Shown here: positions 1,651-58,202 of the stretch, piece by piece | Position numbering within the stretch: the first letter of the stretch is position 1 | Layout: every line of letters starts with the position of its first letter | From: Thermomonas sp. S9 | GTDB lineage: Bacteria; Pseudomonadota; Gammaproteobacteria; Xanthomonadales; Xanthomonadaceae | Length of the DNA: 64,000 bases | Assembly (NCBI RefSeq): GCF_024704365.1 | Contig: NZ_JAJDFY010000001.1 | Coordinates: 2,709,001-2,773,000 of the forward strand | Direction: 5' to 3' | Program-made: the position numbers and the translations under genes | The notes under the pieces: model-generated | Told to the model about the DNA's origin: nothing | What the model saw: only the letters and a program-made list of their open reading frames with translations | Database searches by the model: none

Positions 1651-1685
1651 CTCCCTTGCGCGGCCCGGCTTGCTACCCTAGCCAG

Positions 1686-3501
1686 ATGCCGTCGTCCGCC
1701 CTTGCAACGCTCCGCCGCGTGTTCGGCCATTCCGGATTCCGCGGCGAACAGGGCGCCATCGTCGAACACCTGCTCGCCGGCGGCGATGCGCTGGTGCTGA
1801 TGCCGACCGGCGGCGGCAAGTCGCTGTGCTACCAGCTGCCGGCGCTGCTGCGCGAGGGCACCGCGGTGGTGGTGTCGCCCTTGATCGCGCTGATGCAGGA
1901 CCAGGTGGAATCCCTGCGCCAGCTGGGCGTGCGCGCCGCATTCCTGAACTCCAGTCTGGAGGCTGCCGAGGTCGCGGCGGTGGAGCGCCAGTTCGCGGAC
2001 GGCGCGCTGGACCTGCTGTACGTCGCCCCCGAGCGCCTGCTCACCCCGCGCTTCCTCGGCCTGCTGGAACGCGTGCGGATTGCCCTGTTCGCAATCGACG
2101 AGGCGCACTGCGTCTCGCAGTGGGGCCACGACTTCCGCCCCGAATACCGCCAGCTCACCCTGCTGCACGAACGCTGGCCCGAGGTGCCGCGGATCGCGCT
2201 CACCGCCACCGCGGACGCGCCCACCCGGCGCGAGATCGTGGAGCGGCTGGCGCTGCAGGAGGCGCGCCAGTTCGTCAGCTCGTTCGATCGCCCGAACATC
2301 CGCTACGCGGTGGCGCCGCGCGATGGCGGCCACCGCCAGCTGCTGGAGTTCCATCGAGACCCACCGCGGCGAGAGCGGGATCGTGTACTGCCTGTCGCGG
2401 CGCAAGGTGGAGGCCACCGCCGGGCTGCTGGCCGGGCATGGCCTGCGCGCGCTGGCCTACCACGCCGGCCTGGACGCCGCCACCCGCGCCGAGCGCCAGC
2501 GCCGCTTCCTGCGCGAAGAGGCCATCGTGATGGTGGCGACGATCGCGTTCGGGATGGGCATCGACAAGCCGGACGTGCGCTTCGTCGCCCACCTGGACCT
2601 GCCGAAATCGCTGGAAGGCTATTACCAGGAAACCGGCCGCGCCGGCCGCGACGGCGAGCCGGCCGAGGCGTGGATGGCCTACGGGCTTGGCGATGCCGTG
2701 CTGCTGCGGCGGATGATCGAGGACGGCGAGGCCAGCGACGAGCGCAAGCGGCTGGAACACGGCAAGCTGGACGCGCTGATCGGCTATTGCGAATCCACCG
2801 GCTGCCGCCGGCAGTCGCTGCTGGCCTACTTCGGCGAAGCCCATCCCGGCGCCTGCGGCAGCTGCGACAACTGCCTGTCGCCGCCGCGCACCTGGGATGC
2901 CACCGAGGCCGCGCGCAAGGCGCTGTCCTGCGTGTACCGCACCGGCCAGCGGTTCGGCGCCGCGCACGTGATCGACGTGCTGCGGGGCGCGGATACCGCC
3001 AAGGTGCGCCAGTTCGGGCATGCCGCGCTCAGCACCTATGGCATCGGTCGCGAGCTGGATGCCGCCCAGTGGCGCGGCGTGTTCCGCCAGCTGGTCGCCG
3101 CCGGCCTGCTGGCCACCGATCTCGACAGCCACGGCGCCCTGCGCCTGACCGCCGCCGCCAAACCGCTGCTGCGCGGCGAGCGCGCGCTGCACCTGCGCGC
3201 CGAACCGCCGCGCCGCGAACGCCGCCGCGGTGCGAACGCCAGCGAGCGCCGTACCGGCGCCGCCGCGATCGAACTCCCGGCCGACGCCGTCGCCCGCTTC
3301 GCCCGTCTGCGGCAGTGGCGGGCGGACGCCGCGCGCACCCAGAACGTGCCCGCCTACGTGATCTTCCAGGACGCCACCCTGCGCGCGATCGCACTCGCCG
3401 CCCCACGCGACGTCGGCGCCCTCGCCGGCATCGGCGGCGTCGGCGCCGCCAAGCTCGAACGCTACGGCCGCGAGGTGATCGCGACGCTCGCGCAGGCGTG
3501 A
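1686..3501 (+). CDS. recQ: ATP-dependent DNA helicase RecQ (one-base frameshift)
   Basis: A 3'-5' DNA helicase of the RecF recombination and repair pathway, about 604 aa when repaired. The start at 1686 is chosen because [20 protein letters not shown] follows directly, as in RecQ N-termini. Walker A is [12 protein letters not shown] and the DExH box is [18 protein letters not shown]. After the break come [29 protein letters not shown], the RQC zinc cysteines ([17 protein letters not shown]) and a C-terminal HRDC domain. An extra C around 2351-2353 (in [16 protein letters not shown]) splits the frame. All domains are intact on both sides, so an assembly error is likelier than a pseudogene. Confidence 0.92.
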
Positions 3502-3509
3502 GTGCGGCA

Positions 3510-3920
3510 AGCCCTGATTCGGAAACCGACTGCCCGCAGGCTTTCGGGGATGGTGGGCCGCGCTGGAATCGAACCTGCGACCAGCGGGTTGAGTCCGATT
3601 CGGAGACCGACTGTCGCGAGGAACATGGTGGGCCGTGTTGGAATCGAACCTGCGACCAGCGGGTTGAGTCCGATTCGGAGACCGACTGTCGCGAGGAAAT
3701 GGTGGGCCGTGTTGGAATCGAACCTGCGACCAGCGGGTTGAGTCCGATTCGGAGACCGACTGTCGCGAGGAAATGGTGGCCGTGTTGGAATCGAACCTGC
3801 GACCAGCGGGTTGAGTCCGATTCGGAGACCGACTGTCGCGAGGAAATGGTGGGCCGTGTTGGAATCGAACCAACGACCAGCGGGTTGAGTCCGATTCGGA
3901 GACCGACTGTCGCGAGGAAA
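3510..3920 (-). repeat. Tandem array of five degenerate tRNA-Lys-like units (73-75 bp)
   Basis: Five direct repeats start (plus-strand coordinates) at 3551, 3626, 3700, 3774 and 3847, with lengths 75, 74, 74, 73 and 74, and abut the CCA end of tRNA-Lys at 3921. A decayed partial unit occupies about 3510-3550. Read on the minus strand, each unit aligns along its whole length to the tRNA. The T-arm, 3' acceptor strand and encoded CCA are nearly identical, and CAGTCGGT and ATCGGACT of the D and anticodon arms are kept. The 5' acceptor strand (TTTCCTC instead of GGGCCGT) cannot pair and the anticodon loop is altered. They look like fossil or pseudo-tRNAs. The unit nearest the tRNA keeps its T-stem; the next ones carry CAGG in place of TTGG. 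No protein is expected here. Confidence 0.85.
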
Positions 3921-3997
3921 TGGTGGGCCGTGTTGGAATCGAACCAACGACCAGCGGATTAAAAAGTCCGATGCTCTACCGACTGAGCTAACGGCCC
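3921..3997 (-). tRNA. tRNA-Lys (TTT), anticodon loop one base too long
   Basis: A minus-strand cloverleaf: 7-bp acceptor (GGGCCGT with ACGGCCC), D-arm with GTCGGTAGAGC, T-arm GTTGG-TTCGATT-CCAAC and an encoded CCA at 3921-3923. The anticodon region reads GGAC-TTTTT-AATCC, which identifies lysine with anticodon UUU. It has five T where the usual tRNA-Lys has four, giving an 8-base loop, and a T-C mismatch at the base of the anticodon stem. The extra T may be a homopolymer error, in keeping with the many indels in this window. It lies downstream of queC. Confidence 0.9.
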
Positions 3998-4032
3998 ACG
4001 AAGGATCGCCGCGGCGTTGCGCCGGGGCGCGC

Positions 4033-4038
4033 ATTCTA
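4033..4038 (-). promoter_or_regulatory. Possible -10 box of the tRNA-Lys gene
   Basis: On the minus strand TAGAAT (overlapping the queC TAG stop) is followed by a GC-rich GCGCGCCCC stretch. That is typical of the discriminator of stringently controlled tRNA promoters. No convincing -35 box was seen; co-transcription with queC is an alternative. Confidence 0.3.
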
Positions 4039-4737
4039 ACCGATGCCGGCGTAGCGGGTGGGATCGGGCACGCCGGCCTCGGCAAAGCCCTGCGCGCGCA
4101 GGCGGCAGGCGTCGCAATGGCCGCAGGCGCGGCCTTCGGCATCGGCCTGGTAGCAGCTCACGGTCTGCGCGAAGTCCACGCCCAGGCGCAAACCTTCACG
4201 CACGATGTCGGCCTTGGACATGCGCATCAGCGGCGCGTGCACGCGGAAGCGGCGGCCTTCCACCCCGGCCTTGGTGGCCAGGTTGGCCAGCGCCTCGAAG
4301 CCGGCGATGAACTCCGGCCGGCAGTCGGGATAGCCGGAATAGTCCACCGCATTGACCCCGCAGAACAGGTCGGTCGCGCCCAGCACCTCGGCCCAGCCCA
4401 GCGCCACCGCCAGCATGATGGTATTGCGCGCCGGCACGTAGGTGGACGGGATGCCCTGCCCGATCACGTGGCCGTCGGCATCGGTGGGCACGTCGATGTC
4501 GTCGGTCAGCGCGGAACCGCCGATGCTGCGCAGGTCCACGTGCACGGTCTTGTGCGCCACCGCACCCAGTGCCTGGGCGACGCGCGCGGCAGCGTCCAGC
4601 TCGGAGGTATGGCGCTGGCCGTAGCGCACGCTCAGCGCATGCGGGGCGAAGCCGGCCGCACGCGCGATGGCGAGCACGACGGCGGAGTCCATGCCGCCGG
4701 AGACGAGCACGACGGCGGGTTTGGCGGGTGCGTTCAT
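4036..4737 (-). CDS. queC: 7-cyano-7-deazaguanine synthase QueC
   Basis: A 233-aa ATP-dependent enzyme that converts 7-carboxy-7-deazaguanine and ammonia to preQ0 in queuosine biosynthesis. The PP-loop [14 protein letters not shown] is at residues 13-26. Also present are [35 protein letters not shown] and a zinc site built from SCYQ and [10 protein letters not shown]. It is the last protein gene of the tol-pal-cpoB-queE-queC run, 31 bp after queE. Grouping with queE supports the assignment; queD is not in the window. Confidence 0.95.
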
Positions 4738-4768
4738 ATCAATGTCCGTGCTCTAGCGCATTCGCGCC

Positions 4769-5455
4769 TCAGCGGCCCGGTTCGTCGTTCCATAGCAGCT
4801 TGTGCAGCTGCATCTGGAAGCGCACCGGCAGGCGGTCGGCCACGATCCAGTCGGCCAGCGCGCGCGCCTCGACTTGCCCCGCGCTGGGCGAGAACAGCAC
4901 GTCGCAGACCTCGGGCAGGCGATGCCCGGCCAGTACCTCCTTGGCCCAGTCGTAATCGGCGCGCGAGCAGATCACGAACTTGACCTGGTCGCGCGCAGTC
5001 AGCAGTGCGAGATTGGACCACAGGTTGCGGTGCCCCTCATCCGAGCCGGGCGTCTTCACGTCCACCACCCGTGAGACACGCGGATCGACGCCGGCGATGT
5101 CGAGCGCGCCGGAGGTTTCCAGCGAGACCACGTAGCCGGCGTCGCACAGCTTCTCCAGCAGCGTCAGGCAGCGCTTCTGCGCCAGCGGCTCGCCGCCGGT
5201 GACGCACACGTGGCGCGCGCCGTGGCGGGCCACCTCCTGCAGGATGGCGTCGATCTCCCACCACTGCCCGCCGTGGAAGGCATAGGCGGTGTCGCAGTAC
5301 TGGCAGCGCAACGGGCAGCCGGTGAGGCGCACGAACACCGTGGGCCAGCCGGCATCGCGGGCCTCGCCCTGCAGCGAGAGGAAGATTTCGGTGAGCTTGA
5401 GGCGCTCGGGCTGGACGGCCGCCGATGCGGCGGCCGCATCGGCGACGTCGTTCAT
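4769..5455 (-). CDS. queE: 7-carboxy-7-deazaguanine synthase QueE
   Basis: A 228-aa radical SAM enzyme that contracts the ring of 6-carboxytetrahydropterin to 7-carboxy-7-deazaguanine (CDG). The CxxxCxxC cluster motif appears as GCPLRCQYCDT, a short variant of the radical SAM loop usual for QueE. EIFLSLQGEA at the N-terminus and VCVTGGEPLAQ are further family marks. The start at 5455 leaves an alanine-rich 18-residue leader before LKLTEIF. It supplies the substrate of QueC, encoded immediately downstream. Confidence 0.95.
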   Translation of the reverse strand: MNDVADAAAASAAVQPERLKLTEIFLSLQGEARDAGWPTVFVRLTGCPLRCQYCDTAYAFHGGQWWEIDAILQEVARHGARHVCVTGGEPLAQKRCLTLLEKLCDAGYVVSLETSGALDIAGVDPRVSRVVDVKTPGSDEGHRNLWSNLALLTARDQVKFVICSRADYDWAKEVLAGHRLPEVCDVLFSPSAGQVEARALADWIVADRLPVRFQMQLHKLLWNDEPGR

Positions 5456-57197: not shown

Positions 57198-58202
57198 GCC
57201 CGCCTCCGCGCGCCGACCAGCGCCAGCAGGCCCAGCGCCAGCGCCGCCGCCAATGGCAGTGGGTAGCGCTCGATCCGCGGCCGCACTGCCTGCCCGGCGC
57301 GCGGCACCGGCTCCAGGCGGTCGATGCGGGCATAGGCATCGGCCAGCTCGTCGGTGGCACGGGCGCGGAAGAAGGCGCCGCCGGTCAGCTGCGCGATCCG
57401 CTTCAGCCCGGCCTCGTCCACGTCGTCGCCACCCCCCAGCAGCAGCCGGAAGCCGAACACCGAGGCGGTGCCGCCCTCGCCCCCGAAAGCGATGGCGTAG
57501 ATGCGCAACCCGGCATCGCGTGCGATCCGCGCGGCCTTCTCGGGGTCCAGCACCCCGGCGGTGTTCACGCCGTCGGTGAGCACGATCAGGACGCGCTTGC
57601 CGGGCGGCGCCTCCTGCAGCCGCTTCACCGCCAGCGCGATCGCATCGCCCAGCGCGGTGGCGCGCCCGGCCAGGCCGAGCACCGCATCCCCCCAGCTGCT
57701 GGCGCACGCTGGCGAGGTCGGCGGTCAGCGGGGCCAGGGCATAGGCGCGGTCGCCGAACACGATCAACCCGACCCGATCCCCGCTGCGCCGGCGCAGAAA
57801 ATCTGCGAGCACCGCGCGTGCGGCGGTCAGGCGGTCCACCGGGCGGCCGCCGAGTTCCATGTCCTCCTCGCCCATGCTGGCGGACAGATCCAGCGCCACC
57901 ATCAGGTCGCGCCCGCTGTGCGGCGGCAGCACTGGCGCTCCCCATTGCTGCGGCCGCGCCGCGGCCACGCACAGCAGCGCCCAGGCCGCCCATCCCAGCC
58001 AGGCCACGCCCGGTGCACGCGCGCGCCCCGGCGCACCTGCCGCGACCTGGCGCAGGCGCGTGCCCCACGGCACCCGCAGCGCCGCCCCGGCCGCCGCACG
58101 CACCGGCCACAGCAGGTGCACCAGCAGCGGCAGCGGCAGCGCCAGCAGCAGCCACGGCCAGGCGAATCCATCGAATGGCCATCCTCCCGCGAACATGCTC
58201 AT
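57194..58202 (-). CDS. batA: BatA: von Willebrand A domain membrane protein (one-base frameshift)
   Basis: About 335 aa when repaired. The N-terminal TM region is FAWPWLLLALPLPLLVHLLW. The VWA domain has MIDAS DLMVALDLSASMGEEDM, GLIVFGDRAYALAPLT and, in the next frame, LIVLTDGVNTAGVLDPEKA. The C-terminal TM is PLPLAAALALGLLALVGARRRA. An extra base in the run at 57688-57693 (RQQLG|DAVLGLAGR) splits it. The start overlaps the DUF4381 stop. Confidence 0.9.

Follow-up and report, generated by a model that had tools for sequence, protein, structure and literature searches.

Headless tRNA-Lys(UUU) copies in a tandem array behind the tRNA-Lys gene of Thermomonas and related bacteria: a possible rtT-like trailer

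We analyzed a window of 64,000 nucleotides from Thermomonas sp. S9 and identified a tandem array of headless tRNA-Lys copies, which directly follows the tRNA-Lys(UUU) gene. Arrays of this kind were detected in 17 genomes of different species, in one of which the array was displaced. Alignment of the units with tRNA-Lys gives good support to an origin in which the tRNA was duplicated in tandem, as proposed in the initial annotation of this DNA, and the copies lost the tRNA head. The reading that we prefer, with a chance that we put slightly below even, is that the array may be a transcribed 3' trailer of tRNA-Lys(UUU) that works like the tyrT-rtT system of Escherichia coli.

The array and its units

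Features of the locus are listed in Table 1. The five units of 73-75 nt described in the initial annotation as abutting CCA-to-start were confirmed at 3920-3551, where each begins right after the preceding CCA with 0 nt between units. A truncated sixth unit, which retains GGCAGTCGGTTTCCGAATC and whose 3' half is gone, explains why the array had been drawn from 3510. A direct-repeat search of the window gave one family, with a spacing of 75, 74, 73, 74 and 74, far from chance. The grading of the T-stem that had been noticed was also found: unit 1 has GTTGG/CCAAC as in tRNA-Lys, and the 5' side reads GCAGG in units 2-5.

Table 1. Positions of the tRNA-Lys(UUU) gene, its array and neighboring features in the window
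Feature	Position	Strand	Remarks
tRNA-Lys(UUU) gene	3921..3997	-	CCA encoded; Rfam tRNA match 66.8 bits
Unit 1, 74 nt	3847..3920	-	3' half identical to tRNA-Lys
Unit 2, 73 nt	3774..3846	-	T-stem 5' side GCAGG; one C less ahead of CCA
Unit 3, 74 nt	3700..3773	-	
Unit 4, 74 nt	3626..3699	-	
Unit 5, 75 nt	3551..3625	-	T-stem 3' side CCAGC
Truncated sixth unit	about 3511..3550	-	D-loop and core start only; ends approximate
Candidate tRNA promoter -10 (TAGAAT), G+C-rich discriminator	4021..4038	-	
queC	4036..4737	-	Upstream neighbor, conserved at the array locus
recQ	about 1656/1686..3501	+	Start inferred; convergent neighbor; two frames in this assembly

Each unit is a headless copy of tRNA-Lys, which aligns with the tRNA from the D-loop to CCA. 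A leader consisting mostly of pyrimidines has replaced the 5' acceptor strand along with the 5' side of the D-stem, which is thereby broken. It is followed by the D-loop AGTCGG, retained from tRNA-Lys, and by the 3' side of the D-stem, which is AGA in tRNA-Lys and CTC in the units. The 5' strand of the anticodon stem is also retained, with the loop changed from CTTTTAA (7 nt) to CTCAA (5 nt), as are the T-arm, the 3' acceptor strand and CCA, the T-stem being imperfect in units 2-5. The initial annotation held that the 5' acceptor strand had been replaced. This is true of all five window units; the rest of the 5' half is not simply exchanged, as the D-loop and the 5' strand of the anticodon stem still align with tRNA-Lys and the loop is shortened to CTCAA. 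Rebuilding of the D-stem via compensating changes was considered and rejected, as the changes in the alignment were inconsistent across species.

In a unit the acceptor stem cannot form and the UUU anticodon is absent. Neither ARAGORN nor the covariance tRNA model of Rfam (RF00005) reported any unit, which rules out functional tRNAs, as had been anticipated. A scan of the array against Rfam gave no match to the rtT RNA family; tRNA-Lys itself was the sole match above cut-off, and a Plastid-ycf2 match below its cut-off lay on the opposite strand of tRNA-Lys. The genome contained 47 tRNA genes above the Rfam cut-off, and the gene in the window was the only Lys(UUU) gene found. We searched behind 45 other, distinct tRNA genes for the last 26 nt of the tRNA with fewer than 5 mismatches (597-700 nt each, only 78 nt for tRNA-Trp) and found no similar trailer. 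ARAGORN also called a tRNA-Arg(gcg) at 58027-58106, unconfirmed by Rfam.

The anticodon loop of the window tRNA-Lys has five T and 8 nt, as against four T in the 15 other array genomes compared, and ARAGORN was unable to name a tRNA with this 8-nt loop. The fifth T is probably a sequencing indel; otherwise the gene would encode a +1 frameshifting tRNA. The window assembly consists of two contigs with 89.9% completeness, and recQ, which is in one frame in G008 as judged by match positions, is split; the split gene and the completeness suggest indel errors in the assembly. The copy number of the window is given as assembled. An assembly artefact was rejected as a general explanation of the arrays, since independent assemblies have them and those of G002, G015 and G018 are single contigs. 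An open reading frame at 1656-3962 (+) carries the frame of recQ into the antisense of the array, where it encodes repeats such as RVGIEPATSGLSPIRRPTVARK; if annotated, its product is likely a spurious protein.

Distribution and evolution of the units

Among 84,980 species in the collection searched, the exact unit pattern was found in eight stretches, namely in Thermomonas flagellata, T. hydrothermalis, T. haemolytica, Rehaibacterium terrae (whose record has an N gap within the array), Vulcaniibacterium thermophilum, Lysobacter sp. CAU 1642, Arenimonas fontis and the MAG Xanthomonas sp. QR_Bin.24. A sequence-only model of the 5' part of the unit (the core model) matched 39 of 395 genomes of the family at E<=0.01 and 16 at E<=5e-6, the latter threshold being reached by 8 of the 25 genomes of the genus. 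Of the 16 genomes at E<=5e-6, 15 have the unit behind the orthologous tRNA-Lys, and G128 has it displaced by a prophage. The remaining 23 matches had E values of 3e-4 or weaker; two of four inspected look like chance, and the weak matches in G161 and G162 look like decayed displaced units. A search of 398 genomes of the order gave matches at E<=5e-4 in 10; nine belong to the same family and one (G071) to another.

An earlier pattern that required the core had been found in 12 of 395 family genomes. Because such searches depend on the core, we also ran a core-independent pattern, in which a tRNA-Lys 3' half has to precede a further T-loop; it was present in 13 of 395 family genomes, all with known arrays; the window array is outside this count because of the extra T in the anticodon loop. 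The first units of these 13 had CTC in 11 genomes and TTC in two (G015, G044), and the loop was CTCAA in 11, CTCAC in G125 and CTCGA in G111. Comparison of related genomes, which the initial annotation had recommended, thus showed that the array recurs and that its units number from 1 to at least 7: one full-length unit in G008, G004, G018, G019, G057, G139, G144, G111 and G071, two in G007 and G125, four in G002 and G015, five in the window and G044, and at least seven in G051, where an N gap lies inside the array.

In each of the 16 array loci compared (12 + 4), QueC adjoined tRNA-Lys, indicating an orthologous locus. The other neighbor, recQ, does not always adjoin the array. For example, in the MAG Xanthomonas sp. 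QR_Bin.24, genes for an N6/N4 DNA methylase, Fic and ResIII-type proteins, likely a defence island, separate the array from recQ (L039 640-7085). Presence of the array is patchy. A QueC tree (44 of the 48 rows picked; 5 of 41 inner branches well supported) requires it to change state at least 12 times, so the array is dispensable. Throughout, the groups counted as 'without array' (in the terminator, core-decay, skew and tree counts) include G020 and G011, which have units of a different, 120-nt kind described below, and the possible-remnant genomes G024 and G006.

The two halves of a unit evolve differently. Over the last 33 nt, 16 proximal units had 34 differences in total from their own tRNAs, 23 of them from G057 alone (a two-base deletion), compared with a mean of 104 when pairings were shuffled; none of 20,000 shuffles, which ignore relatedness, was as low as 34. 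The clearest case is G071, whose unusual T-stem CCGAG/CTCGG is copied exactly from its own tRNA into the unit. In G019, the T-stem of the unit is unlike that of its own tRNA and equal to that of the G015 and G018 tRNAs. The letters that changed from AGA to CTC are kept in 15, 16 and 16 of 16 aligned units; CTCAA is the loop in 14 of them, and none of the 16 tRNAs has either. The leader has no letter common to more than 9 of the 16. The non-tRNA core GGTCTC...CTCAA is common across genera and to a second family with few variants, without being strictly invariant (G015, G018, G044, G111, G125). As the 3' half matches the tRNA of its own genome and the core is shared yet absent from tRNAs, the 3' half appears to follow the tRNA and the core to be held otherwise. 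From these comparisons we infer that the 3' half tracks the tRNA through conversion or recombination. Distal units drift: the window has the T-stem GCAGG, G015 has lost CCA, and in several species the array ends in half units.

Patchy presence, distal decay and a copy number of 1 to at least 7 would also be expected of functionless recombination debris, a reading in which a tandem duplicate lost its head once and its copies expand, convert and decay neutrally, kept headless and anticodon-free only by selection against misfolded chargeable tRNA. Possible decayed remnants seen by eye behind tRNA-Lys in G024 (next to G002) and G006 point the same way, though the core model, run on 34 loci without arrays, gave nothing below E=1 (best at G024, E 2.6). 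The core argues against debris: several genera and a second family share it with few variants while the leader is randomized, and the tRNA, which has no core, cannot be what homogenizes it. We regard debris as a possible but rather unlikely explanation, second to the trailer.

Transcription, folding and phage integration

Exact TAGAAT occurs no more than 50 nt upstream of tRNA-Lys in 10 of 16 array genomes; a consensus promoter scan upstream of tRNA-Lys found nothing, and an intrinsic terminator search of 3300-5000 was likewise negative. Co-transcription of the array with tRNA-Lys is likely, judging from the direct junction of CCA and unit 1 and the lack of an intrinsic terminator there. The single unit of G004 and that of G139 are each directly followed by a strong intrinsic terminator. 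Terminator-like sites no more than 200 nt from the tRNA were found in 3 of 16 array loci versus 5 of the 33 loci that lack the 74-nt kind; with no clear difference between these counts, the idea that arrays replace intrinsic terminators was rejected.

In the 75 nt behind CCA, the mean C-over-G skew was 0.20 (sd 0.07) for the 16 array loci, 0.11 (sd 0.12) for 33 other loci and 0.03 (sd 0.16) for 46 other tRNAs of the genome. The signal is modest and overlaps the controls, 7 of the 46 other tRNAs reaching 0.2, and part of it is due to the loss of the G-rich 5' strand. It suits Rho, without proving its action. A reading of the array as nothing but a Rho-dependent terminator region, whose repeated C-rich stretches would end tRNA-Lys transcription before the convergent recQ, agrees with the excess of C over G along the transcribed strand of the array and with the negative terminator search. 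Trailers without an array are also C-rich, however, recQ is not the neighbor everywhere, and a terminator leaves both the matched 3' half and the shared core unexplained. We consider this reading the most improbable of those weighed here.

The tRNA-Lys and its five units fold better than shuffled sequences (z -2.8; 0/100), whereas single units do not (z -0.46 to 0.38). Covariation across species was limited to five pairs with two-sided changes, four of which are T-stem pairs; the T-arm, which the units inherited from the tRNA, is the only part that clearly covaries. A conserved unit fold predicted by RNAalifold, in which GGUC pairs with the acceptor strand, was rejected, as there was one two-sided change outside the T-arm, in one sequence.

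The initial annotation had also suggested an integration hotspot. This stands insofar as prophages use tRNA-Lys as an attachment site. An intact tRNA-Lys is present in G128 at 2,928,229, and a tRNA 3' half plus unit lies at 2,885,104; the stretch read between them (L145, 2,885,104-2,928,304) contains phage genes, including those for a tape measure protein and a tropism determinant. It appears that a prophage of ~43 kb has pushed the unit, together with the tRNA 3' half, to its own far end, so that what the phage used was the tRNA and not the array. A comparable arrangement, spanning 29 kb and with a decayed unit, is present in G161. In viral contigs, 12 stretches in 10 contigs matched the block from the anticodon stem to the T-loop, and 11 of them continued to CCA. 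Six were preceded by a whole tRNA, one stretch was cut, and the other five had a non-tRNA left flank. Two viral matches to the core lay in near-identical sequence that had no tRNA.

These observations bear on a third alternative, namely that the units are an attachment-site by-product, either scars of elements that integrate at the 3' half of tRNA-Lys or att-like copies acting as decoys, whose changed 5-nt loop would make them unusable for phage integration. The displaced unit of G128, the viral blocks that reach CCA and the direct repeat of a tRNA 3' end, a classic trace of integration, all fit it. Conflicting evidence comes from the five non-tRNA flanks, which have no resemblance to the 5' half of a unit, and an attP origin of that half was rejected because the viral flanks differ. 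In addition, the D-loop and anticodon stem of the units track the tRNA of the host itself, the exact unit pattern occurred 0 times in viral contigs, and the window units have no mobile DNA or integrase between the repeats of the tRNA tail. We view an attachment-site origin as improbable, more so than debris; as far as seen, with G128 as the one clear case, the phage target is tRNA-Lys.

Comparison with other tRNA trailers and implications

The parallel to tyrT and rtT drawn in the initial annotation holds for the topology. Behind tyrV of E. coli, 178-nt repeats start after CCA and end in the last 19 nt of tRNA-Tyr (L171). The tyrT-rtT repeats (rttR, tpr) likewise abut CCA in tandem, and the tRNA 3' tail is copied at the end of each; the present array shares this architecture of units that run from the tRNA CCA to a tRNA 3' copy. 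The two differ in that the rtT units are 178 nt long with a 19-nt tail, whereas here the whole unit of ~74 nt is headless tRNA-Lys. Transcription of tyrT undergoes Rho-dependent termination within the repeats. The rtT RNA is reported to be freed from the tRNA operon transcript and was tied to the stringent response (PMC4986893), rtT was linked to BIME-type repeats (PMC2965389), and E. coli strain OV2 is reported to have lost one tyr tRNA gene and RtT (PMC12584984).

A second kind of array was present in the same genus. In G020, tRNA-Lys is followed by two 120-nt units and a partial third (L158 1066-1305). As in the 74-nt kind, units behind the same tRNA-Lys abut CCA and end in the tRNA tail; unlike it, the tail is limited to the last 16 nt, and the units form strong hairpins (z -5.95). 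Of the 25 genomes of the genus, only G020 matched the 120-nt unit pattern. By eye, G011 (L156) has a single decayed 120-nt unit, and the G128 unit combines the core with a hairpin similar to that of the 120-nt kind.

Other tRNA-derived elements are less close. The tRNA-Other of Bacillus cereus is also tRNA-derived, non-translational and near an integration site, but it is a single predicted pseudo-tRNA beside an island (PMC3399842), in contrast to a tandem array of headless units that adjoins a working tRNA. Our search of the literature, mainly by titles and abstract openings, gave no report of headless tRNA-Lys arrays. The 3' external transcribed spacers of tRNAs act as small RNA sponges. Like the array, they are tRNA trailers with a possible regulatory role; unlike it, they are not known to repeat the tRNA 3' end.

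On the reading that we prefer, the array would be a co-transcribed trailer that is amplified by recombination and has a constrained core, and it would probably release CCA-ended small RNAs or help to end the transcript. Unequal recombination would alter the number of units, and gene conversion from the tRNA would renew the proximal unit while distal units decay. The polymerase would start upstream of tRNA-Lys, continue past the abutting CCA into the array and stop in or after it, at a Rho-type signal or at intrinsic terminators such as those seen in two species. Cleavage at the CCA ends could then free tRNA-Lys and CCA-ended RNAs of ~70 nt, which would have no tRNA fold and present no UUU anticodon, and the shared core may be what makes these RNAs, or a stop or processing signal, functional. 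A more specific proposal, which we hold to be doubtful, is a lineage-specific small RNA family derived from tRNA-Lys(UUU), made in several copies per transcript, in which the core GGUCUC...CUCAA binds a target such as a tRNA-processing enzyme or an RNA. Members of such a family would retain the D-loop, T-arm, 3' acceptor strand and CCA but have neither an anticodon nor a 5' acceptor strand.

Units of this kind are missed by the tRNA finder and by Rfam, and assemblies may break inside arrays. The one tRNA trailer repeat compared here was tyrT-rtT; the same layout is now seen at another tRNA, in another order and with an unrelated unit, and a second kind occurs in a species of the same genus. 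This allows comparative tests of how arrays originate, stay equal to the tRNA and disappear, and of whether trailer RNAs have a function. If the small RNA family proposed above exists, tRNA genes would be founders of the repeats from which families of trailer RNAs arise, and E. coli rtT and the two kinds of 74 and 120 nt would be separate inventions.
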